This document shows positions 4,655 through 36,801 of a DNA stretch of 64,000 nt, piece after piece (position 1 is the first letter of the stretch; every line of letters begins with the position of its first letter). The notes beneath the pieces were generated by a model. The model saw only the letters and a list, made by a program, of their open reading frames with translations. It did no database searches and was not told the origin of the DNA. Position numbers and translations under genes: made by a program. The DNA lies in NCBI GenBank assembly GCA_016218045.1, contig JACRFB010000010.1:72101-136100 (forward strand), written 5' to 3'. Source of the stretch: Ignavibacteriota bacterium (GTDB lineage: Bacteria; Bacteroidota; Ignavibacteria; SZUA-365).

Positions 4655-4710
4655 ATGTGCTTTCGTTAAAAGTTCTTCGATGATTGTATCCGTCCTATCC
4701 CTAACCACCT

Positions 4711-4774
4711 AATCGTCCGATCGTCTAATCGTCCGATCGTCTAATCGTCTGATCGTCTAATCGTCCGATCGTCT
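4711..4774. repeat. Four 16-bp tandem repeats (eight octamers)
   Basis: Exactly four copies of AATCGTCCGATCGTCT lie at 4711-4726, 4727-4742, 4743-4758 and 4759-4774, with one C-to-T change in the third. Each unit is two related octamers, so the period is 8. The array ends on the first base of the stop codon of the next minus-strand gene and fills most of the gap before hppA. No spacers, so not CRISPR. Confidence 0.95.
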
Positions 4775-19657: not shown

Positions 19658-20965
19658 TCAAGATCGTTCTCCGTCGCTCCCCGATTTTTTTCCGGAGGCG
19701 AGAATCGCGCCCACAAGATAATGTGATCCGAAAACAAGAATGGATTCGTCGGATCGGGCGCTGTGCACGTGATCCACGACCGCAGTAACGGCGTCCGTTG
19801 CGACGCGCGGAGCCGGCTCGAGTCCCTGCGCTGCTGCCGCGATTTCGGACGCGGGCCGGCCGTCGGGATGAGGAATGTCGACAATGGTGACCGATGCCCA
19901 GCGGTGCGTTGCAAGCAACGCCAAAACTTCGGCGCTGTTTTTTGTGCGAAGCAGGCCGAACACGAGATGTGTGCGCGCGGTCTCGCGCACGGCGCGCCAT
20001 GCGCAGAGAAGTGCTGCAACACCGTCGGGATTGTGCGCCACGTCGACGACACACTCGGGCGTGGCGGCGATGCGGTCGAGGCGCCCCGCGATGCCGGTGC
20101 GGCGTTTTACGTCGCCTATGCCCTGAATGATCACGGGTGTGCCGACACGCCAACCTGCCGCGGCGAGCAGCTCGGCCGCCCGTATCGCGAGTCGCGCGTT
20201 GGCCGCCTGATGGTCGCCGACGAGCGGCGAGACGAATCGCTCGATCGAGCGCAACACCGCGGCGTCGAATTCCATGTGGTCGATGTCGATGATCTGTTCA
20301 ATGCCCGCGGCCGTGGGCACAACGTGCAGCGCCGCGCCGCGTTCGCGCGCGACCTCCACCACGACGTCCATCGCATCGGGCTGGAGATCGGCCGACACCA
20401 CCGGCACGCCATTCTTGATGATGCCCGCCTTCTCGGCGGCTATGGCGGCAAGGGTCGTGCCGAGGTACTCCGTGTGATCGAAGGCGATGCCTGTGATGAC
20501 ACTGAGCGCCGGCTCCACGATGTTGGTGGAATCGAGGCGGCCGCCGAGACCTGTCTCGATCACGGCAGCTCCCGCGCGCCGCTCTGCGAAATAGCGGAAG
20601 GCCATCGCGGTTGTCGCCTCGAAGAACGTGGCCTTGAGTTCGTCGATGCGCGGAGCCATCTCGATCGTCATGCGCAGCACGTCGGCCTCCGGGATGGGCA
20701 CGCCATCCACTCGGATCCGTTCGCGGAAATCCACAAGATGCGGCGAGGTGTACAGTCCGGTGCGGTAGCGGGCGGACGAGAGAATGGATGCGATGTAGGC
20801 CGATGTCGAACCTTTGCCGTTTGTTCCCGCGACGTGTATCACGGGATAGGCGCGGTGCGGATTGCTATAATCGGACAAAAGGGTCCGGATATTGTCGAGT
20901 CCGAGTTTGATGCCGAATGTCTGCAGGCCGTAGAGGTAGGCGACTGCCTCGGCGTAGGATGTCAT
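19658..20965 (-). CDS. folC: Folylpolyglutamate synthase / dihydrofolate synthase
   Basis: A 435-aa Mur-ligase-family enzyme that adds glutamate to dihydropteroate or folates. ATP loop VAGTNGKGSTSAYI near the N-terminus, SPHLVDFRERIR, the ETGLGGRLDSTN motif, and the C-terminal DVAHNPDG are all present. Start at 20965 (MTSYAEAVAYLYGL) with GGAGAG upstream. It begins 23 bases after the PEGA-like gene, so it is probably the last gene of the envelope operon that starts near 28250, although its role is housekeeping. Confidence 0.94.
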   Translation of the reverse strand: MTSYAEAVAYLYGLQTFGIKLGLDNIRTLLSDYSNPHRAYPVIHVAGTNGKGSTSAYIASILSSARYRTGLYTSPHLVDFRERIRVDGVPIPEADVLRMTIEMAPRIDELKATFFEATTAMAFRYFAERRAGAAVIETGLGGRLDSTNIVEPALSVITGIAFDHTEYLGTTLAAIAAEKAGIIKNGVPVVSADLQPDAMDVVVEVARERGAALHVVPTAAGIEQIIDIDHMEFDAAVLRSIERFVSPLVGDHQAANARLAIRAAELLAAAGWRVGTPVIIQGIGDVKRRTGIAGRLDRIAATPECVVDVAHNPDGVAALLCAWRAVRETARTHLVFGLLRTKNSAEVLALLATHRWASVTIVDIPHPDGRPASEIAAAAQGLEPAPRVATDAVTAVVDHVHSARSDESILVFGSHYLVGAILASGKKSGSDGERS

Positions 20966-20988
20966 GCGGGAAAGCTCTCCTTGCACAT

Positions 20989-21648
20989 TCAGGGTTTGAT
21001 GGTCCACGTGAACGTGTCTTCCTGCTTCACGTCCACAACCTCGCCCGCGGTGTTGCCGAAGGCGTCGGTCACGCGCACGTGTGTCGTGCCGTTTCCGGTG
21101 GAAAAGGTCTGCTCCTCCGCGTCATGCAGGAAGCCCATGTATTTCCCGTCTATGTACACATCGAGCAGACGGCCGGCCTGATTCACGACGCGGACGTAGC
21201 CGATGAATGTCCCCTCTCCCCGTGTACGCGGCGCCATGGCGAGCGTCTGCCGCAGGCGCGAGAGAGGTTCGTTGCCTCCGGGTATACGTGTCGCCGCGAG
21301 TGCGAGCGCCTTCTCGAGGACGGGATCCTGGCGGTCTTCCGCGATGCGCACCGCCTCATTGAGTATCGCGAGGGCCGTGACGGACGCGGCGCGTTTCCCG
21401 GCCAACTCCTCGACATACGCGAGCAGCACGGCCTCGGCGGCAAGGGCCTGCGCATCGGCAAAACGGCGCGCATTGTCAACACGCACGCCGAAGCCCGGCA
21501 ACGGATCGGACGCGAGTCCGAATTCGCCCCCGACATCGGTATACGCGAGGCGCGGGAACGCGGCCTTGACAAGACTGCTGTTTTTTTGCGCCAGCGCGGG
21601 CGCGGACAACGTGAGAAGTACAAGGATGGAAAGAGCGAAGCGTGTCAT
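20989..21648 (-). CDS. Secreted protein with C-terminal PEGA-like domain
   Basis: A 219-aa protein with a signal peptide (to PALAQ), an alpha-helical middle rich in Ala and Glu (about 60-130), and a C-terminal 70-residue beta domain (VVNQAGRLLDVYIDGKYMGF through FTWTIKP). The C-terminal part resembles PEGA/surface-binding domains in which a short Gly-Lys turn follows a strand. No catalytic motif. It lies 67 bases downstream of the CHAT gene and 23 bases before folC, and belongs by position to the exported peptidase module. Confidence 0.65.
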   Translation of the reverse strand: MTRFALSILVLLTLSAPALAQKNSSLVKAAFPRLAYTDVGGEFGLASDPLPGFGVRVDNARRFADAQALAAEAVLLAYVEELAGKRAASVTALAILNEAVRIAEDRQDPVLEKALALAATRIPGGNEPLSRLRQTLAMAPRTRGEGTFIGYVRVVNQAGRLLDVYIDGKYMGFLHDAEEQTFSTGNGTTHVRVTDAFGNTAGEVVDVKQEDTFTWTIKP

Positions 21649-21715
21649 GTCGGTATCCTCCGGAAATCGTGGTGCACTGTTCTTGTTCGCTCGAAGCGGA
21701 GTTGCAGTGGCGTGC

Positions 21716-24136
21716 TCATCGGGTGTCCCCGAAGAAAATAAAGGCGGACCAATAATACGGGAAAACCCAATCGGGATCTTTTGGTGTATTCAACAGTGAG
21801 AGTGCGGCCAGCCGCGCGGCCTGCGCCTTGGCCATGCCGTCGCGCCGCCATGCGCGATAAAACTCGATCATCCACGCGAGTGTGGCGGCATCGTCCACCA
21901 CCCACAACGACGCAATAACGGATGGTGTTCCAGCATAAACGAAGGATCGGGTCAGGCCCACAAGTTCGTCGCCCTGCGTGAAGCCGCCTTCCTCGCCCGC
22001 GACCTGCGCCGTCTGGCATGCGCTCAAGGCGACGAGCGCGGCATGCAGGTCGAGGTTGAACACTTCGCCGACCGTGAGATTGCCGTCGTCATCACCTTCG
22101 GGTTTTGCCGCGGCCAGCAGGATGCGCGAGCGCAGTGGTTCACGCTTGTTGAGTTCACCGTGCGTGGCGAAGTGCAGAACGTCGGCGCGCACGGCCTCAC
22201 GTTTCACGCGCGCCTCTTCGGCGGCGGCACCGGTCAGGACAACGGCGCCATCGATGTATCGCGCGACGGAATCGGCCTCGACCAGAGCGCCCGCGAGAGG
22301 ACGCGCGCGATAGACGGGGTCGGCGTAGGCGGGATCACCCACGACGAGGCTCGTGGCGCCGTCCGCAGGGGCCTTCGAACGTACAAAGGCCAGCACGCTT
22401 GCCGAAGGAAGATAGGCGATGGCCATGTCCTCGATCAGGAAACGCGGCCGCGCGACGTGGACATCGCGACGTTTGTCGAAATTGCCTATGCGCACGAGCG
22501 CTTGAAAAGGCAGATGATGCAGCGGTCCGTGCGGGACGACATAGGCCTGCCGCACACCACGCAACAATGCATCGACGGGAGCGAGCAACACACTGTACAT
22601 CTCCATCAGCTCGAACTGCCAGCGGCTGTCCGTTGCGCCCGCCCGCCATTCAGCGAGGGCTTGGTCCATTGTCAGACCCTTCTGCAGGCGAGCCGCGCGC
22701 AGCGCCGCGGCGCGGGCATTCGGGAAATCGGCGTACAACCGCCGTCGCAGCGTCTCGATGCGGCGCTCGAGTCCGTACTCGGCGCGTATGGTGAGACGTT
22801 TGGCGACGAGTGTGTCGCGGCGCAGAAGAAAGACGAAGGCGGCGCGTTCGCCGTCGTCCACAGTCTCACCGATGAAGTACTCGACGAGTGCGGTCGAATC
22901 GTCGAGCAGCGCGCGCAGATCGCGCGCCGGGGCGGGCTCGATGCTCTTCACAGACGCGTATTCGGGATCGACATCGCGCAGCGTGTCGAGAACGGATCTG
23001 TGCCGCTGCAGCAGGATGGCTACTTGTGCGCTGCTGTCGGGAGTGTCGATGAGCCGGGCTATCTGCTCGTGCAGCGCGCGCTCCTCCGCCACCAACGCGG
23101 CGCCGCGCGCGGTACGCTGTTTTTTTTCGCCGATGGTCTTGTTGCCGAGCATGTCGAGGAACGAGCGCGCCTTCGCTCGTTCCGCATACTCGAAAGCCTC
23201 GTCGAACTTTCCGAGGCGCACGAGTATCGAGATGAGGCGCTCGTAGAGATGGTACTTGTTCGAGACAAAACTCGAACGCACGTCGATGGACGTGAGTCCG
23301 CCGCGCAATTCCTCGATGATCGAGATTCCCCGTCGCAACGCCTCCGCGGCCTCCTCGCCTCGACCGTCCTCGTCGAGCATCAGACCGATATTGCCGAGGC
23401 ACATCGCCTCGTGCACGCGGAATCCGGAGACGCGGTATTCGTCGTTGGCGCGGCGGAACGCGGTGACCGCGCTGTCGCGCCGACCCTCGTGTGCAAACGT
23501 GTTGCCGAGATTCAGCCATGCGTCGGCGGTGGGAAACACGGCGAGCGACTCGCGAAAGTACGCGCGGGCCGTGTCGAGGTTCGCGCGGAAGCGAGCGGTG
23601 TCGGCCCCGCGACGCGCCGCGTCAGCACGCAGATAGTACACGGTTCCGATGTTGTACAGTGAGACCGCGACAGGAAGCGGCTCTCCGCGCAGCCGGTCGT
23701 CCGCAAGCACGAGCCGGTGCATCACCTCGGCCTCGTTGTATCGTCCCGCGTTTTTTTCCACCACTGCAATGTTGTTGAGCACGTTCGCCCGTTCCTGACG
23801 CGCGAGGCGCGGCGTCCTTGCTCCCGCGGCGGAAAGCAGACTGTCGAGCTGCGCGCGGGCCTGTTGATACAGCACAAGAGCGTCGGCATCACGTCTGTAG
23901 GCAAGGCGCACATTGCCGAGCCACTTTCTGCACTGCGCCTGCAGCAGGCCGTCCCGGTCACGCTCCGCCTCACGAAGCAGTTCCTTGAACAGGGTTTCGG
24001 CCGCTTCGTACTGTCCCCTGTCCACCATCGCGCGTCCCTGACTGATACGCGGATCTTCATTCACCACCACATCCGGCGCGGAACACGATGCGACACACGC
24101 AAGCAGCACTATCGATATAAGGAGGCGTCGGGTCAT
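21716..24136 (-). CDS. TPR-CHAT peptidase lipoprotein
   Basis: An 806-aa predicted lipoprotein: lipobox VASC gives Cys18 as the acylated residue. Residues about 30-330 form tetratricopeptide repeats (pairs such as YNEAEVMHRLVL and AWLNLGNTFAHEGRRDSAV), a helical linker follows, and the C-terminal third is a CHAT domain, a caspase relative of clan CD. The catalytic pair is intact: His659 in LHFATHGE and Cys707 in ALSACQTAQ. CHAT enzymes cut protein targets, often after activation; here the enzyme would act outside the inner membrane. It lies in one strand-run with a FecR-like and a WD40-caspase gene. Confidence 0.9.
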   Translation of the reverse strand: MTRRLLISIVLLACVASCSAPDVVVNEDPRISQGRAMVDRGQYEAAETLFKELLREAERDRDGLLQAQCRKWLGNVRLAYRRDADALVLYQQARAQLDSLLSAAGARTPRLARQERANVLNNIAVVEKNAGRYNEAEVMHRLVLADDRLRGEPLPVAVSLYNIGTVYYLRADAARRGADTARFRANLDTARAYFRESLAVFPTADAWLNLGNTFAHEGRRDSAVTAFRRANDEYRVSGFRVHEAMCLGNIGLMLDEDGRGEEAAEALRRGISIIEELRGGLTSIDVRSSFVSNKYHLYERLISILVRLGKFDEAFEYAERAKARSFLDMLGNKTIGEKKQRTARGAALVAEERALHEQIARLIDTPDSSAQVAILLQRHRSVLDTLRDVDPEYASVKSIEPAPARDLRALLDDSTALVEYFIGETVDDGERAAFVFLLRRDTLVAKRLTIRAEYGLERRIETLRRRLYADFPNARAAALRAARLQKGLTMDQALAEWRAGATDSRWQFELMEMYSVLLAPVDALLRGVRQAYVVPHGPLHHLPFQALVRIGNFDKRRDVHVARPRFLIEDMAIAYLPSASVLAFVRSKAPADGATSLVVGDPAYADPVYRARPLAGALVEADSVARYIDGAVVLTGAAAEEARVKREAVRADVLHFATHGELNKREPLRSRILLAAAKPEGDDDGNLTVGEVFNLDLHAALVALSACQTAQVAGEEGGFTQGDELVGLTRSFVYAGTPSVIASLWVVDDAATLAWMIEFYRAWRRDGMAKAQAARLAALSLLNTPKDPDWVFPYYWSAFIFFGDTR

Positions 24137-24153
24137 CGTTTTAGCAGGCACAG

Positions 24154-24362
24154 GGAACGGCAGACGGCAAACGGGAAATGGTGAAGGACGAAACGCGAGT
24201 GGAAAATGACGAACAAGGATCGGGGTCCGATATTGCTAGTATTAGCTGAGGTTGTCTCCTGTATCCTCAATCCTGTCTCCTCACACCGCTCTGAAAAGAC
24301 CCCACCCCTACCATCTACCAACTACCACCAGCCACTACCAACTACCAACTACCACCTACTAT
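24154..24362. repeat. Cluster of three heptad arrays between two module genes
   Basis: 24154-24223 reads as ten 7-bp units (GGAACGG, CAGACGG, CAAACGG and onward). 24253-24280 is TGTCTCC, TGTATCC, TCAATCC, TGTCTCC, nearly the same as 13233-13260. 24308-24362 has CTACCAA-type heptads with one 6-bp unit. The last array runs across the stop codon of the FecR-like gene (24359-24361). The first array is purine-rich on the plus strand, the other two pyrimidine-rich. Confidence 0.8.
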
Positions 24363-25357
24363 CTCCTCCCACCAAGTATCGCCGCAACCACGGTCGTCTG
24401 ATTTCCGAAACGCGGAAGAATTCTCGCGAACTGCTCGACCGCAAAGCGTGACGAAGTGGGGGATGCGGCTAAAACGAGGAGATGTTGGAATGCGTCCGCA
24501 AAGAGCCGCTCCCTGTCGTCACTGTACGCCAGGACGCTGAGCGTGTGATAGGACTGTTCGTCGATTTTTTTTCCTGAGAACAAGGCCTGCAACTCCTCAC
24601 GTTTCTGCGCTGCCTTCTCGAGTCCGCCCTTGTCTGCGAACATAAAGAACGCGTCAAAAGCAGGGAGGGGATTCGGCACCTTGCCTTGTTCGTACACGGC
24701 CCAGGTATAACGCTTTTCGGGAACGGGCTTGAGGCCCGCGCTCAATTTATCGGCGCGCATGCTGTTCATGCGATATACGGCTCCTTCCACGTCCTTCTGC
24801 GCGACCACGGCATTCTCGGCATCGCGTATGATGATCGTGTAGGTCCGTGTTTTCCCGGATGCGGAGGAGTCGGTATCGAACCAGCAAAACAGCGGATTCG
24901 GATCCGAAAGTACGAGACGCGGCGACACGGCGACGGGCATGGCGTCGCCGCGAATTCCGGATGCGATGGAGAGCTGCGACAGCGCATCTTTGCCCTGCTG
25001 GCGTGCGATGCCTCCGCCGGGCACGGCCACCGTTTCATCACGCGTGACACCGCGGGTGCCGCCCGCATCGGCCAGCTTGCTTGCGGATGCGGTGGCGCCC
25101 ACTGTCAGTTGCTCACCGGCCTGCACTTCGAGAAAATCTCCGGCCATAAAAACAATTGAAGTAGTTCCAGTACGGACGGTCAGCACGTCGCCGGGACGCA
25201 ATTCCGCGCCCACGGACGCATCCGTCACCGCGCCTCCGGCAGGGGCTTTAATGTCGGACTTTCCGCCGTTGCTTGTGACCAGCGCGACGGGCTGCTCCTG
25301 CGCAGTGGCCCGCACAGCGGTGATCAGGAAAACAGTCAGTAGTAGTATGAATCGCAT
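24359..25357 (-). CDS. Exported FecR-domain-like protein
   Basis: A 332-aa protein with a signal peptide (MRFILLLTVFLITAVRATAQ). Residues about 40-90 resemble the FecR fold (GAELRPGDVLTVRTGTTSIVFMAGDFLEVQAGEQ). A beta-rich middle includes FCWFDTDSS and a helical C-terminus follows. FecR-like domains occur next to CHAT and caspase genes in other bacteria, usually as surface or periplasmic binding parts. The start at 25357 follows AAGGA; the 36 residues before it in the open frame are translated repeat (VESGRWK twice) and not real. Between the WD40-caspase and CHAT genes. Confidence 0.72.
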   Translation of the reverse strand: MRFILLLTVFLITAVRATAQEQPVALVTSNGGKSDIKAPAGGAVTDASVGAELRPGDVLTVRTGTTSIVFMAGDFLEVQAGEQLTVGATASASKLADAGGTRGVTRDETVAVPGGGIARQQGKDALSQLSIASGIRGDAMPVAVSPRLVLSDPNPLFCWFDTDSSASGKTRTYTIIIRDAENAVVAQKDVEGAVYRMNSMRADKLSAGLKPVPEKRYTWAVYEQGKVPNPLPAFDAFFMFADKGGLEKAAQKREELQALFSGKKIDEQSYHTLSVLAYSDDRERLFADAFQHLLVLAASPTSSRFAVEQFARILPRFGNQTTVVAAILGGRR

Positions 25358-25400
25358 GTCAATGTCCTTCTTCGTGTAATGACACCCTTCTCTCTCTCTC

Positions 25401-25470
25401 TCTTCACTCTTCACTTTCCACCTTCCACTTTCAACCTTCCACCTTCCACTTTCCACATTCCACATTCCAC
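25401..25470. repeat. Ten heptads of the TTTCCAC type, abutting a stop codon
   Basis: Units TCTTCAC (x2), TTTCCAC, CTTCCAC, TTTCAAC, CTTCCAC (x2), TTTCCAC and ATTCCAC (x2) run without a slip and end at the base next to the stop codon of the WD40-caspase gene (25471-25473). A CT dinucleotide run (25388-25400) precedes the array. Confidence 0.92.
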
Positions 25471-27711
25471 CTACCTGACTCGCGCCACGTTGAAATTTGC
25501 GAACTCCTCGAGCCGTGGAATCATCGGCGTCTGCGCACCGCGGGTGAGTTCCTTCACCGTTGTTGTGACGTAGAGCTGCAGTTCGCTCCAGTCGATGATA
25601 TTGTTCTTTGTGAAATCAGCATTGCCGCTGAGTCCGTCGATCAGGGCTTTGGTGAACGCGCCATGGCCCCACTCGCGGTTCTCGAACGAGTACTCGTTAC
25701 CGGAGCTTGATGCAAGGATGATGCCGACTTTGTTTGCAAGGGCTCCCGCGACCTTGTCGTTCGACGCGCCCGATGAGACTTCGCCCGAATGGCAGGCGTC
25801 GAGCAGCATCACCACACGGCCTGCGCGCAGTCGCATAATCTGCCGTGCCACATCCTCCCATGACAGACCGTCCCGCGCGACGGTTTTACGCGCGGCGCCG
25901 GCGGTCACAAAGAAGTACTCGGTCCCGCCCTTTGTATTGCGCGCGCGAACGCCGTGCCCGCTGAAAAACAGCACCAGCATGTCGTTTGATCGCATCGGCG
26001 GGAATTGGGCGATGGCATCCAGCACGCCCTTCCGCGAGGCATCCTTGTTCAGGAGCACCTTGCTGTAGACACGCGTGTATTCCTTGCCCTCCTGCGCGGC
26101 GAGTTTTTGGGCGAACATGTTGGCGTCGAGCGCCGCGTACGTCAGATCGGGGAAGGCGCCGCCGTACTGGTCCACCCCCACGCTCAATACAAAGAGATTG
26201 GCGCGCTGCTGGTCGGCGGTCTCGACCTTGATCACTGCCTGTGCCGGTTTACTGTGTACGCGGGCCGCGTTGTATGCGACCGCCTCGATCACGTTGATGC
26301 CGGGCAGCACCTCGAGGCGCACGCGGCGGACGAGTTCTGTCTCGCTCCGCGTGAGTGTTTCGGAGGACACGAGATTTTCATCCGCAACGGGACGGCCGTT
26401 GAGACGCAGTTGCGCGGATTCAATTTTTTTCTTGTCCCGCGCGCGGAACTCCACAACGATTTCCATTTTCTCGCTGCCGAAGGCAAAGAGCTGCTGATGC
26501 CGTGGTGACAGCAATTCAAGCGTGGGCGGATCGATCACGCGCGCAAGCCGCGCCTCGGGCGCGTAGGTGCCGGCCAGCGCATCCTCTATTACCGAAGGCT
26601 TTTTGTAGAGCGCCTCGTAGCGCTCGAGGGGGAAAAGCTCTTCTCCGCGCCGCCATTGCACATACCGGTCGCCGAACACCGAGCAGTCGTAGTACCCGTC
26701 CGGCGTGAAGCTCAGCCATTGTCCGTCGCTGAATCCCACCATGCTCACGAGCTGCGCGGCATCCTTCACCCGCCAGGTTTTCACCGCGCCGTCAATATGT
26801 GCGGTGGTGAGGCGTTCGCCCTTTTTGGGTTCGAACACCGACGCCATTGCGCCATACGACTCGGGCACCGCGCGTACACGCAGCGACTTCTGCCAGTCCC
26901 ATACTTCGACGAGTCCGTCCATCATGCTCACCGCAACGGTCTTGCCGCTCCGGTCGAAGGACAGATGATGCGGAAAACCGATGCCCGTTTCAAAATACTG
27001 CATAGGCGCGCGTTTGCGCACGTCCCAGGCGCGGACGATGCGGTCACGTCCTCCGCTCAGCAGCGTGGTGTTGTCGGGTGTGAATTCCACACATCGCGCG
27101 AAGCGACTGTGCCTGCCGAGCAGCGCCACCGCCGCACCCGACTGCGCATTCCACAGGCGTACGGTGCCATCCTGCCCGGCGGACGCGAGCAGTGCCCCGT
27201 CGCGCGATACGGCAATGCCTGTCACCCACACCGATCCCGCTGCGGACGCGAAACGCCTCCGGCCATCAGTGTCGTAGACCGCGATGCTGTCGTTTCTGCC
27301 TGACACCGCTATGCCTCGCCCATCGGGCATAAAACACAGGTCGGTGACATAGGAATACCCCGCATGGAATTCGACGCGCCTGTTTCCCGAGACGGCGTCG
27401 TACACGGTGATACGACCGTTCATGTCGCCAACGGCAAGAACCGATCCGTCCGTACTGAGCGCGAGCGCAGTGTTCAGTGTCGCGCGCTCGGCGCGCATCG
27501 TCCGCAAGCATTCGCCGTTGACCGTGCTCCACATTTTCACCGTGGAATCGCGGCCGCAGGAGTAAATCACTTTCCCGTCGGGGCTCATGGCCACATCCCA
27601 CACGGCGCCCGATTTCCCTTCTTCGAGGTACATCGAAACACGGTCGTCCTGCGCCGCTGAGAAGGTTGACAGCAATACAAAAAGGCCGATAATTCGCAAG
27701 AATCGTCTCAT
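25471..27711 (-). CDS. Exported WD40-repeat caspase-family peptidase
   Basis: A 746-aa protein with a signal peptide (MRRFLRIIGLFVLLSTFSAAQ). Residues about 30-330 form a WD40 propeller (repeats end in VKMW, ITVYD, IAVYD, VRLWN, VRAWD, VEVWD, VKTWR). Residues about 395-495 are an Ig-like beta domain (PPTLELLSP to AVIKVET), and 500-746 a peptidase C14 domain. The catalytic dyad is intact: His586 in LFFSGHGVR and Cys640 in MLLDACHSG. The substrate pocket sequence ILASSSGNEYSFE is also conserved. Bacterial caspase homologues are usually cytoplasmic; this one is predicted to be exported. Start at the ATG at 27711 because the signal peptide begins there. Confidence 0.92.
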   Translation of the reverse strand: MRRFLRIIGLFVLLSTFSAAQDDRVSMYLEEGKSGAVWDVAMSPDGKVIYSCGRDSTVKMWSTVNGECLRTMRAERATLNTALALSTDGSVLAVGDMNGRITVYDAVSGNRRVEFHAGYSYVTDLCFMPDGRGIAVSGRNDSIAVYDTDGRRRFASAAGSVWVTGIAVSRDGALLASAGQDGTVRLWNAQSGAAVALLGRHSRFARCVEFTPDNTTLLSGGRDRIVRAWDVRKRAPMQYFETGIGFPHHLSFDRSGKTVAVSMMDGLVEVWDWQKSLRVRAVPESYGAMASVFEPKKGERLTTAHIDGAVKTWRVKDAAQLVSMVGFSDGQWLSFTPDGYYDCSVFGDRYVQWRRGEELFPLERYEALYKKPSVIEDALAGTYAPEARLARVIDPPTLELLSPRHQQLFAFGSEKMEIVVEFRARDKKKIESAQLRLNGRPVADENLVSSETLTRSETELVRRVRLEVLPGINVIEAVAYNAARVHSKPAQAVIKVETADQQRANLFVLSVGVDQYGGAFPDLTYAALDANMFAQKLAAQEGKEYTRVYSKVLLNKDASRKGVLDAIAQFPPMRSNDMLVLFFSGHGVRARNTKGGTEYFFVTAGAARKTVARDGLSWEDVARQIMRLRAGRVVMLLDACHSGEVSSGASNDKVAGALANKVGIILASSSGNEYSFENREWGHGAFTKALIDGLSGNADFTKNNIIDWSELQLYVTTTVKELTRGAQTPMIPRLEEFANFNVARVR

Positions 27712-27772
27712 GTGCTCAAGTCGCTGATGGTAGAACAACAATGTAGCGATTCGACCCGTGTTTCGGAAGGCA

Positions 27773-28252
27773 CTACTTGGCCTTCCACATCAGCCCGCCC
27801 TTGCGGTCATAGAGTTCAAGATGGGATTCCCCGGCGCCGTCCACTCCGAGACTCACACGCACCTGTCCCGCACGATCGAAGATCGTGAGATAGGGTTCAC
27901 CGTTGTCCTTTCTGTAGCCGATGTTGATGTGCGGCTGTGTGGCGATTTTTGTGGTGACTGTGACGTTGTCCTGCGATGTGGACTTTTCCGCGGTGGATGT
28001 TCCGATGAAGAATCCTCCGAGTCCGGTCTGGGGATCCGTGAGCATCGCGCCTTTCAGTGTACCGTTCTGGTCCTTGAGCAGAAAGCGCCCTTCGTAGGTC
28101 TGCTGTTCGTATGCGCTCATCCAGCCGACGAGCATCAGCGCGACGACACACAGCAGCGCCGCAGCCCCGCCACGCTTGATCCGGCGGTTCTGGCGTTCCA
28201 GCGTCTCGACGCGACGCAGAAGAATATCAACGTGTACGAGTTCCGGCGACAT
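27773..28252 (-). CDS. Coiled-coil membrane-anchored beta-repeat protein
   Basis: A 159-aa protein: a short helical, heptad-like N-terminus (LVHVDILLRRVETLERQNRRIKR), one transmembrane helix at about 30-47, then an outside domain of short beta repeats (RFLLKDQNG, YLTIFDRAGQVRVSLG, HLELYDRKGGLMW). The repeated LxxxDxxG pattern suggests a small beta-roll. The start at 28252 has AGAGG upstream; earlier codons are not conserved-looking. It ends 61 bases before the WD40-caspase gene and may be the first gene of that operon, a candidate anchor for the exported peptidases. Confidence 0.65.
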   Translation of the reverse strand: MSPELVHVDILLRRVETLERQNRRIKRGGAAALLCVVALMLVGWMSAYEQQTYEGRFLLKDQNGTLKGAMLTDPQTGLGGFFIGTSTAEKSTSQDNVTVTTKIATQPHINIGYRKDNGEPYLTIFDRAGQVRVSLGVDGAGESHLELYDRKGGLMWKAK

Positions 28253-28540: not shown

Positions 28541-29200
28541 ATGAGCAATCCAGCAACATTGCTGACACAGGATGATCAAAAACGCATCGCCGAGGCGGTG
28601 AAGGCAGCGGAGAGCCGAACCTCCGGCGAAATCGTACCGTACATCGTAGGCCGGAGCGATCCCTATCCCGAGGCCCCATGGCGCGCGGGCACACTCGTCT
28701 CATTGCTGGTGCTGGGGGTGCTCGCAGGACTGTGGATGGGCACAAACCTGTGGCTGCCCTATGGTGTGGCCGAGGTCGCGCTGCTCACCATCGCGGGCTT
28801 CATACTCGGAGCCGGCCTCACGCTGCTCTTTCCCTCGCTCAAACTGCTTTTTGTGTCGTCGGCGGTCGTGAAACAGCGTGTGGATGAACGCGCCGGACTC
28901 GCCTTCCTCGACGAAGAGGTGTTCGCCACGCGCGACCGCACGGGAATCCTGATTTTCCTGTCGCTGCTCGAACACCGCGTGCGCATACTCGGCGACAGCG
29001 GCATCAATGCGAAAGTCAAGCAGGAGGAATGGGATGGCATAGTGGCCGACATGGTGGCGGGCATGAAGCGCGGCGCACCTGGCGAGGCGCTTGTCGGCGC
29101 GATCGGACGCTGCGGCGAACTGCTCGCGCGCATGGGGGTCGAGATCAGGCCCGACGACACAAACGAACTTGACAACGCCGTCCGTCTGCACACAAAATGA
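28541..29200 (+). CDS. TPM-domain membrane protein
   Basis: A 219-aa protein of the TPM (YgcG/MOLO1) superfamily: the N-terminal ITTSGEIVPYIV-like segment SRTSGEIVPYIVGRSD, two transmembrane helices at about 48-100, and a C-terminal part with RTGILIFLSLLEHRVRILGDSGI and VGAIGRCGELL. It matches the short TPM proteins that stand beside YgcG-type genes. Start ATG at 28541 with AAGGA upstream. It overlaps the next gene by 4 bp (ATGA). Confidence 0.82.
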   Translation: MSNPATLLTQDDQKRIAEAVKAAESRTSGEIVPYIVGRSDPYPEAPWRAGTLVSLLVLGVLAGLWMGTNLWLPYGVAEVALLTIAGFILGAGLTLLFPSLKLLFVSSAVVKQRVDERAGLAFLDEEVFATRDRTGILIFLSLLEHRVRILGDSGINAKVKQEEWDGIVADMVAGMKRGAPGEALVGAIGRCGELLARMGVEIRPDDTNELDNAVRLHTK

Positions 29201-30117
29201 GACGCGCGCATCTTTTTTTCTCGCTGACGGTCGCATGTCTGCTGATCGCCCTTGCGGCCGCGCGTGCACTCGACGTGCCGTACCTGGGCGGTCGCATCAA
29301 TGATCTGGCGCACATCCTGTCGACAGGCACCATCGAGGAAATCGAACGCCTGCTGAAGGCGCATGAGGACAGCACGGGGAATCAGTTCGCCGTGTTGACC
29401 ATCACAACCCTCGAGGGAGAATCTCTCGAGGAGTATGCCCTCCGCGTCGCCGAGACATGGAAACTCGGCAAAAAAGGCTCGGACAACGGCGCCCTGCTTC
29501 TCATCGCAAAGGACGACCGAAAGCTGCGCATCGAAGTGGGCTACGGCCTCGAGGCCTCGCTCACGGATGCCGTCTGTTCTTTCATCATAAACGAGAAAAT
29601 CACGCCGGAATTCAAGAACGGGAATTTCGACGCGGGCGTGCTTGAAGGCGTGCGCGCGATGATCGCCGCAGCCGACGGCACACTCGACACAAGCACGGCT
29701 TCTTCGTCCGCCGATGGTTTCGACACGACAGGCATGATCTTCTTCCTCGTGTTTTGGATGGGCATCGTCGGCGTCTTCACCTTCCTCGGCATTTTCTCGA
29801 AGGGCTGCACGTCGTGGTTCATGTACGCGTTTCTGATTCCGTTCTGGGCAGCTCCCGCGCTCATCCTCCTCGACTCGCCCGTATCGTTCCTCGGACCGGT
29901 CTTCTTCCTTGTATACATCATCGGCTTCCCGCTTTTAAAGCTGCTCGCGCCAAAAACCGAGTGGGGCAGATACCTTACAACCAAGGTCACGACCTCACGC
30001 AGCAGCGGCGGGTGGATGAGTTCCTCCTCCTCCGGAGGCGGCTGGTCCAGCGGCGGCAGTTCGTTCTCAGGCGGCGGTGGATCTTTCGGCGGCGGCGGCT
30101 CGTCGGGAAGCTGGTAA
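29197..30117 (+). CDS. YgcG-type TPM-domain protein with Gly/Ser-rich tail
   Basis: A 306-aa protein with a signal peptide, a periplasmic TPM domain (about 25-160; YLGGRINDLAHILS, FAVLTITTLEGESLEEYALRVAETWKLG, DNGALLLIAKDDRKLRIEVGYGLE), transmembrane helices between about 185 and 255, and a C-terminal tail of Ser and Gly (WMSSSSSGGGWSSGG and onward). These proteins usually pair with LemA; no lemA gene is in the window. Some TPM domains have phosphatase activity, and roles in membrane protein repair have been proposed. Confidence 0.88.
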   Translation: MRRAHLFFSLTVACLLIALAAARALDVPYLGGRINDLAHILSTGTIEEIERLLKAHEDSTGNQFAVLTITTLEGESLEEYALRVAETWKLGKKGSDNGALLLIAKDDRKLRIEVGYGLEASLTDAVCSFIINEKITPEFKNGNFDAGVLEGVRAMIAAADGTLDTSTASSSADGFDTTGMIFFLVFWMGIVGVFTFLGIFSKGCTSWFMYAFLIPFWAAPALILLDSPVSFLGPVFFLVYIIGFPLLKLLAPKTEWGRYLTTKVTTSRSSGGWMSSSSSGGGWSSGGSSFSGGGGSFGGGGSSGSW

Positions 30118-30120
30118 ATG

Positions 30121-30213
30121 GACGTTTCCACGTTACACGTGTCCACGTTTCACGTTTCCGCGATACACGTTTCCGCGTAGCACGTTCCCACATAGCACGT
30201 TTCCACGTTTCAC
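30121..30213. repeat. CACGTTT repeats alternating 7 and 8 bp
   Basis: Units CACGTTA, CACGTGTC, CACGTTT, CACGTTTC, CGCGATA, CACGTTTC, CGCGTAG, CACGTTCC, CACATAG, CACGTTTC and CACGTTT alternate 7 and 8 bases (15-bp superperiod). The array starts four bases after the stop of the TPM gene. The string ACACGTGTCCACGT is shared, in inverse orientation, with the array near 2065-2090. Confidence 0.88.
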
Positions 30214-36518: not shown

Positions 36519-36552
36519 GAAAAACCGCGTGCCGGGAAAAAGGCAGCGCGGT
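36519..36552 (-). terminator. Attenuator hairpin of the TPP riboswitch
   Basis: Stem ACCGCG-TGCC with GGCA-CGCGGT (one bulged base), then TTTTT on the minus strand, directly downstream of the aptamer and about 63 bases before the receptor start. It is the expected off-state platform: TPP binding would let it form and end transcription. Confidence 0.85.
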
Positions 36553-36559
36553 GTGGAGT

Positions 36560-36648
36560 TCATTCCTACGCCGGCATTATCCGGGTCAGGTTCGACGGGT
36601 GTGTTCTCAGCCGTCCCTTTTTTTGGTGCGGGACAGCACCCCGAGTGA
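36560..36648 (-). promoter_or_regulatory. TPP riboswitch aptamer (THI element)
   Basis: On the minus strand the conserved pieces appear in order: GGGGTGC, a variable stem, CTGAGA, CCCGTCGAACCTGA, then GGATAATGCCGGCGTAGGAA. These are the pyrimidine- and pyrophosphate-sensing helices of the TPP riboswitch. It precedes the TonB receptor and thiamine pyrophosphokinase genes. Confidence 0.97.
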
Positions 36649-36801
36649 CACACCAATCTACGCGTTGCCATGCACTCTGTCAAGGCCCGGAGCACATCTC
36701 ACCGCGGATGGCCACCGGTAGCGGGGGAACGGCCTTCATTCCGCACACCCGGCGGGCGTATCCCCTTGCACGTCGCGGTTCTCCGTGGGTATTTTGTAAG
36801 G

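Follow-up and report, generated by a model that had tools for sequence, protein, structure and literature searches.

The conserved unit of the locus analysed here is a triad of genes encoding a WD40-caspase, an MtxA-like protein and a TPR-CHAT lipoprotein, which we read, with a probability of roughly 0.45, as a proteolytic module of the core genome that is located in the envelope and serves signalling or maintenance. According to the best-supported reading, the module is built like an exported Craspase joined to a caspase, being probably tethered to the outer membrane and equipped with a sensing adaptor. The locus lies in a stretch of 64,000 nucleotides from an Ignavibacteriota genome, referred to as the window.

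A conserved three-gene unit

A check of open reading frames and translations found all predicted genes on the minus strand of the window (Table 1), five genes and folC having the positions and lengths which an earlier note, made from this DNA alone, had claimed for them. For the TPR-CHAT gene an alternative upstream start is a GTG at 24151.

Table 1. Features of the locus, with positions in the window.
Feature	Position	Strand	Description
P0001	27773..28252	(-)	159 aa; short coiled coil, one TM helix, C-terminal domain
WD40-caspase gene	25471..27711	(-)	746 aa; predicted signal peptide, WD40 propeller ~33-330, C14 domain ~508-732
MtxA-like gene	24359..25357	(-)	332 aa; predicted signal peptide, beta-rich N-terminal, Ig-like and helical TPR-like C-terminal domain
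TPR-CHAT lipoprotein gene	21716..24136	(-)	806 aa; lipobox Cys18, TPR superhelix, linker, CHAT peptidase domain
P0005	20989..21648	(-)	219 aa, predicted secreted; beta-rich C-terminus
folC	19658..21007	(-)	housekeeping neighbour; TIGR01499 364.6 bits, 8e-109
Caspase catalytic His586 codon CAC	25954..25956	(-)	invariant in 12 aligned sequences
Caspase catalytic Cys640 codon TGC, in DACHSG	25792..25794	(-)	invariant in 12 aligned sequences
CHAT His659 codon	22160..22162	(-)	invariant in alignment; matches Csx29 H615
CHAT Cys707 codon	22016..22018	(-)	invariant in alignment; matches Csx29 C658
Candidate cleavage site K339-x-R341	23114..23122	(-)	invariant in order; in the TPR-to-CHAT linker, modelled with low confidence
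Heptanucleotide array (GTGGAAR)n	25405..25472	(-)	intergenic, caspase / MtxA-like junction
Second 7-bp array (TTGGTAG)n	24308..24359	(-)	between MtxA-like and CHAT genes

We compared the 16 genomes of the order, mostly from uncultured Bacteroidota-group bacteria, within a search that took in 60 relatives. CHAT orthologs are present in all 15 other genomes of the order, G009 holding a contig-end fragment alone, and WD40-caspase orthologs likewise in 15 of 15; outside the order no comparable CHAT or WD40-caspase match was obtained among the 60 relatives. Identities amount to 50-63% for the CHAT orthologs where these are of full length and to 40-57% for the caspases, some of which are cut by contig ends. 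The MtxA-like gene occurs in 15/16 genomes and was not seen in G003, in which it could lie in a gap, because the caspase and the CHAT gene are each found at a contig end there. In 13 of the 16 genomes the triad is contiguous on one contig with unchanged gene order and strand (the third gene being in some of these represented by its start only); in G003, G013 and G014 it is split by contig ends, and none of the 16 genomes provides a counterexample to the gene order. The arrangement is thus not confined to the genome of the window, and an adjacency arising by chance in a single genome, to which we attribute practically no weight, is refuted by this synteny.

The genes of the triad are tightly packed. 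At the caspase / MtxA-like junction there is an overlap of 4 or 1 bp in nine genomes, a distance of at most 11 bp in three more and one of 44 bp in G009, resulting in a spacing of -4 to +11 bp in 12/13 relatives; the spacing between the MtxA-like and CHAT genes is -4 to +4 bp in 11/14. In the window's own genome each of these two junctions, so tight in most relatives, is occupied by a heptanucleotide array. Further intergenic gaps of the window, at 30122-30213, 1928-2100 and 4709-4774, are filled by degenerate tandem arrays of this kind with units of 7-8 bp, and (GTGGAAR)n has 166 pattern matches on at least 17 contigs of the genome, the counts being about twice those of the reversed-pattern control (87/79 vs 43/34). 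A scan of the region for promoters and terminators returned matches at chance level. Divergent from the operon, two neighbouring genes with a TPM_phosphatase domain are located at 28541-30117, and a TPP riboswitch scoring above the Rfam gathering score lies at 36548-36653 (-).

The five-gene set proposed in the earlier note is conserved as to its triad core, P0001 and P0005 standing outside it. P0001 has no Pfam match and is restricted within the order to the window's own genome and to G003 (36%), where it is found on another contig; it is accessory. P0005, present in 15/16 genomes of the order, overlaps folC by 19 bp in most of them and follows the CHAT gene after a gap of about 50-240 bp, and in the complete genome G004 it is positioned at 2.117 Mb, i.e. 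214 kb apart from the triad at 2.33 Mb. Because of this distance, the wider gap to the CHAT gene and the overlap with folC instead, we limit the core to three genes; P0005 goes with folC as a separable unit, by which, together with the lack of conservation of P0001, a five-gene unit is ruled out. Relatives of P0005 lie directly after TPR-CHAT genes in G340, a genome of another family, and P0005 is a probable auxiliary partner. Membership of P0005 in the PEGA family was not supported, Pfam returning a weak BiPBP_C match alone (16.7 bits vs 26.8), and its profile retrieved nothing useful from the PDB sequences.

Vertical inheritance beside housekeeping genes

Pairwise distances of the triad proteins track those of Rho, with r = 0.97 for the caspase, 0.92 for the MtxA-like protein and 0.93 for the CHAT protein as plain pairwise correlations ignoring kinship, which is the pattern expected from vertical descent. 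Defence genes that are mobile tend to have a patchy distribution. The vertical and near-universal inheritance of the triad beside housekeeping genes therefore argues against a defence island, and the sensing of phage contact or damage suggested by the earlier note gained no positive evidence. An anti-phage or regulated-death system, with the WD40-caspase as the sensor of phage contact or damage and death executed by the CHAT protein, agrees with the match of the caspase to the PADLOC 'caspase' model (6e-12, 43 bits) and with CHAT and caspase domains being effectors of many conflict systems (PMC10907252). We nevertheless consider it improbable: besides the order-wide presence, the divergence tracking Rho and the housekeeping neighbours, the apparent export signals speak against it, no NTPase switch domain was found in the triad, and PADLOC gave for the CHAT and MtxA-like proteins a weak TPR model and no other match.

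The presence throughout the order, the divergence tracking Rho and the housekeeping neighbours folC-rho would also be expected if two exported, co-expressed proteases performed routine envelope work with no cascade, such as maturing or turning over surface proteins or enzymes of the cell wall, the MtxA-like protein and P0005 being their substrates or scaffold. In several relatives the upstream genes of the same strand are ManC-like (by sequence), of the RlpA type (DPBB lytic transglycosylase) and polysaccharide-deacetylase-like, a hint at envelope work that fits this explanation as well. We regard it as possible while rather unlikely, since so close a linkage of just these three genes suggests that their products form a stoichiometric complex.

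Two clan CD peptidases with intact dyads and apparent export signals

The domain assignments of the earlier note were reproduced by Pfam and TIGR models for WD40, C14, TPR, CHAT and FolC, FecR and PEGA being without Pfam support. For the WD40-caspase, Pfam reports WD40 at 8.5e-35 and Peptidase_C14 at 9.3e-14 (52.1 bits vs a cut-off of 21.4), and an alignment with PDB 3bij, the caspase-like protein GSU0716, runs through SGHG and D-x-CHSG, which together with the His/Cys dyad places the protein among the C14 peptidases. The dyad residues, embedded in SG-H586-G and DA-C640-HSG, are as invariant in the 12 aligned sequences as D529 and D638, and the latter two are consistent with an acidic S1 pocket. 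The caspase shares the H/C dyad and the D-x-CHSG motif with WD40 orthocaspases of cyanobacteria and other bacteria, WD40 being the accessory domain most often found in orthocaspases (PMC8283722, PMC3501461); unlike these, it is predicted to be exported, has no NACHT/AAA domain and is firmly joined to a CHAT peptidase in one operon. Elsewhere in the window's own genome (contig C45, L087:8279-11952), two more caspase genes (367 and 485 aa) lie less than 3 kb apart; the first of these looks exported, and G003 has a similar pair on contig C1 (L089).

The TPR-CHAT protein matches Pfam CHAT at 6.8e-61 (206.7 bits vs a cut-off of 24) and TPR_12 at 2.7e-20. Its dyad motifs AT-H659-GE and SA-C707-QT are invariant in 14 aligned CHAT sequences, and H659 and C707 fall in a phmmer alignment (positions counted from the printed alignment) on H615 and C658 of Csx29, the activity of which is abolished by H615A/C658A (PMC10028731), supporting its assignment to the CHAT peptidases. 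The residue numbers of both dyads agree with the earlier note, which also rightly saw two clan CD peptidases side by side, with intact dyads and, as read by eye, export signals in both. Foldseek with the predicted model returned the TPR-CHAT chains of Craspase as best matches, separases ranking lower; the catalytic region of the CHAT domain has low confidence in this model, and the VIA list, filled by TPR proteins, bears on the TPR part and not on the CHAT part. The protein resembles Csx29 of the type III-E CRISPR system Craspase/DiCASP in its TPR superhelix preceding a CHAT peptidase, in the aligned dyad and in fold, and it differs in being a predicted exported lipoprotein having no Cas7-11 or Csx30 nearby. 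No gene for either of these was found among the neighbours, which are the caspase, the MtxA-like protein, P0005, folC and rho, and the NCBIfam Csx29 model NF041237 scored 28.2 bits on the TPR-CHAT protein, far below its cut-off of 300.

The dyads and the motifs around them stay invariant though the proteins diverge to about 50% identity, which argues against both proteins being non-proteolytic binding scaffolds despite their intact dyads. Such a role would accord with our search of the open-licence literature, which turned up no exported CHAT protein whose activity had been measured; we judge it very improbable.

Export signals were read by eye from the sequences of the orthologs, the N-termini of which are hydrophobic, many with ends of the A-x-A-Q type. 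The signals are conserved, and the caspase, the MtxA-like protein and the TPR-CHAT lipoprotein are apparently exported. Every aligned CHAT ortholog has the invariant lipobox Cys18 and no Asp at +2. E. coli lipoproteins without Asp at +2 are sorted to the outer membrane, and by this rule the CHAT lipobox points to the outer membrane.

An MtxA-like protein between the two peptidases

For the middle protein, the label 'FecR-like' was rejected: Pfam FecR (PF04773) matched 0/13 orthologs, the Pfam matches obtained being scattered and weak, and the profile of the family weakly meets a true FecR protein at 17 bits. 'MtxA-like' is the better description. In the AlphaFold model (pLDDT 75.6) a beta-rich N-terminal part is followed by an Ig-like domain and by a C-terminal domain made of helices, and VIA matched its residues 140-332 to the C-terminal domain of MtxA from Magnetospirillum (4z29_B) with a Z-score of 11.8 and an rmsd of 3.8 over 158/169 residues, the runner-up reaching Z 8.4. 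MtxA was found by VIA alone, Foldseek with the same model giving no convincing global match (TM <= 0.26). MtxA has a signal peptide, as the middle protein is predicted to have, and the two share a Big domain and a TPR-like C-terminal fold, the likeness being one of fold only: the MtxA-like profile retrieved no 4z29 chain at E <= 1 and nothing else useful from the PDB sequences, and sequence similarity to MtxA is not detectable. MtxA, itself encoded next to a CHASE2-cyclase gene, has been proposed to act in periplasmic interactions, its deletion being without clear phenotype (PMC4439547). A paralog of the MtxA-like gene in the window's own genome follows directly after a CHASE2-domain gene (contig C39, L084:7357-10328), and we base the name on this neighbourhood and on the fold match. 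The partners differ, being two peptidases here, and we infer that the MtxA-like protein is a periplasmic sensor or adaptor.

Related arrangements in the phylum

Of 395 genomes sampled from the phylum, 187 contain CHAT and 128 contain C14. The loci that we read were picked from the best hits, so that the pairings described here are not frequencies. Five loci of one family (L085, L086, L100, L101 and L102) show a FecR/Ig-TPR gene, related to the MtxA-like gene, directly upstream of an exported-looking TPR-CHAT gene; unlike the triad, they have no adjoining caspase gene, and their CHAT proteins are longer (about 1000 aa). Reading of loci also brought up one more CHAT-caspase pair outside the order, in G282 (L115), with adjacent genes overlapping by 4 bp and an apparently exported caspase; it differs in that this caspase has a DUF4384 domain and no WD40, the CHAT protein comprises 1623 aa and no MtxA-like gene was detected. 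Further CHAT-C14 adjacencies were not seen by eye among the matches listed for the 395 genomes. Exported-looking WD40-caspases with no CHAT gene nearby occur in the same class (L112-L114), therefore such a caspase can work without a CHAT partner. At L097:7458-17446, two TPR-CHAT genes (820 and 1843 aa) are each followed by a P0005-like gene that has no Pfam match. The open-licence literature yielded no paper pairing 'CHAT domain' with 'FecR' and none on an exported caspase-CHAT operon; the parts are of known kinds and their combination appears to be undescribed in that literature.

Discussion

Comparison of these data suggests a model in which the three triad proteins would form a periplasmic complex, probably tethered to the outer membrane. 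Sensing and binding would fall to the MtxA-like protein and the WD40 propeller, and the CHAT domain, architecturally like Csx29, would be a peptidase held off until the TPR part is rearranged. More tentatively, the caspase with its putative acidic S1 pocket might cut after Lys or Arg, thereby activating or releasing the CHAT or the MtxA-like protein. P0005 is probably an auxiliary partner of the module or one of its substrates.

Cleavage of the CHAT protein by the caspase, a possibility raised in the earlier note, is plausible from the sequence. The linker at about residues 328-342 is flexible in the predicted model (pLDDT < 50 at 328-335, coil at 331-342), and K339-x-R341 within it is invariant in the order. 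As orthocaspases favour basic P1 residues (PMC8283722) and D529 and D638 are invariant, K339-x-R341 would be the strongest candidate for the site of such a cleavage by the caspase, should it occur. The nearest CHAT relative outside the order (L097), which has no caspase neighbour, keeps the K and not the R; this single close outside contrast suggests a candidate cleavage site for a Lys/Arg-specific caspase, and the motif may be structural instead. A full periplasmic cascade of two proteases, in which an initiator WD40-caspase would activate the executioner TPR-CHAT protein by a cut after Lys/Arg, gated by an MtxA-like sensor, is in our estimation unlikely as a whole. If true, it would be an extracytoplasmic caspase cascade in a core genome, serving envelope physiology and not immunity.

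Work on bacterial caspase and CHAT peptidases has mostly dealt with effectors of immunity or death in the cytoplasm, and an exported caspase-CHAT pair which belongs to the core genome and is vertically inherited would show that this clan has a role in the envelope too. With its three proteins, the triad is a small system well suited to a direct test of whether one clan CD peptidase activates another. For MtxA-like proteins, of which one structure is known and the function is not, it becomes plausible that they act in the periplasm as partners of signalling enzymes and peptidases. Bacterial relatives of our own cell-death proteases seem to act here in the cell envelope.
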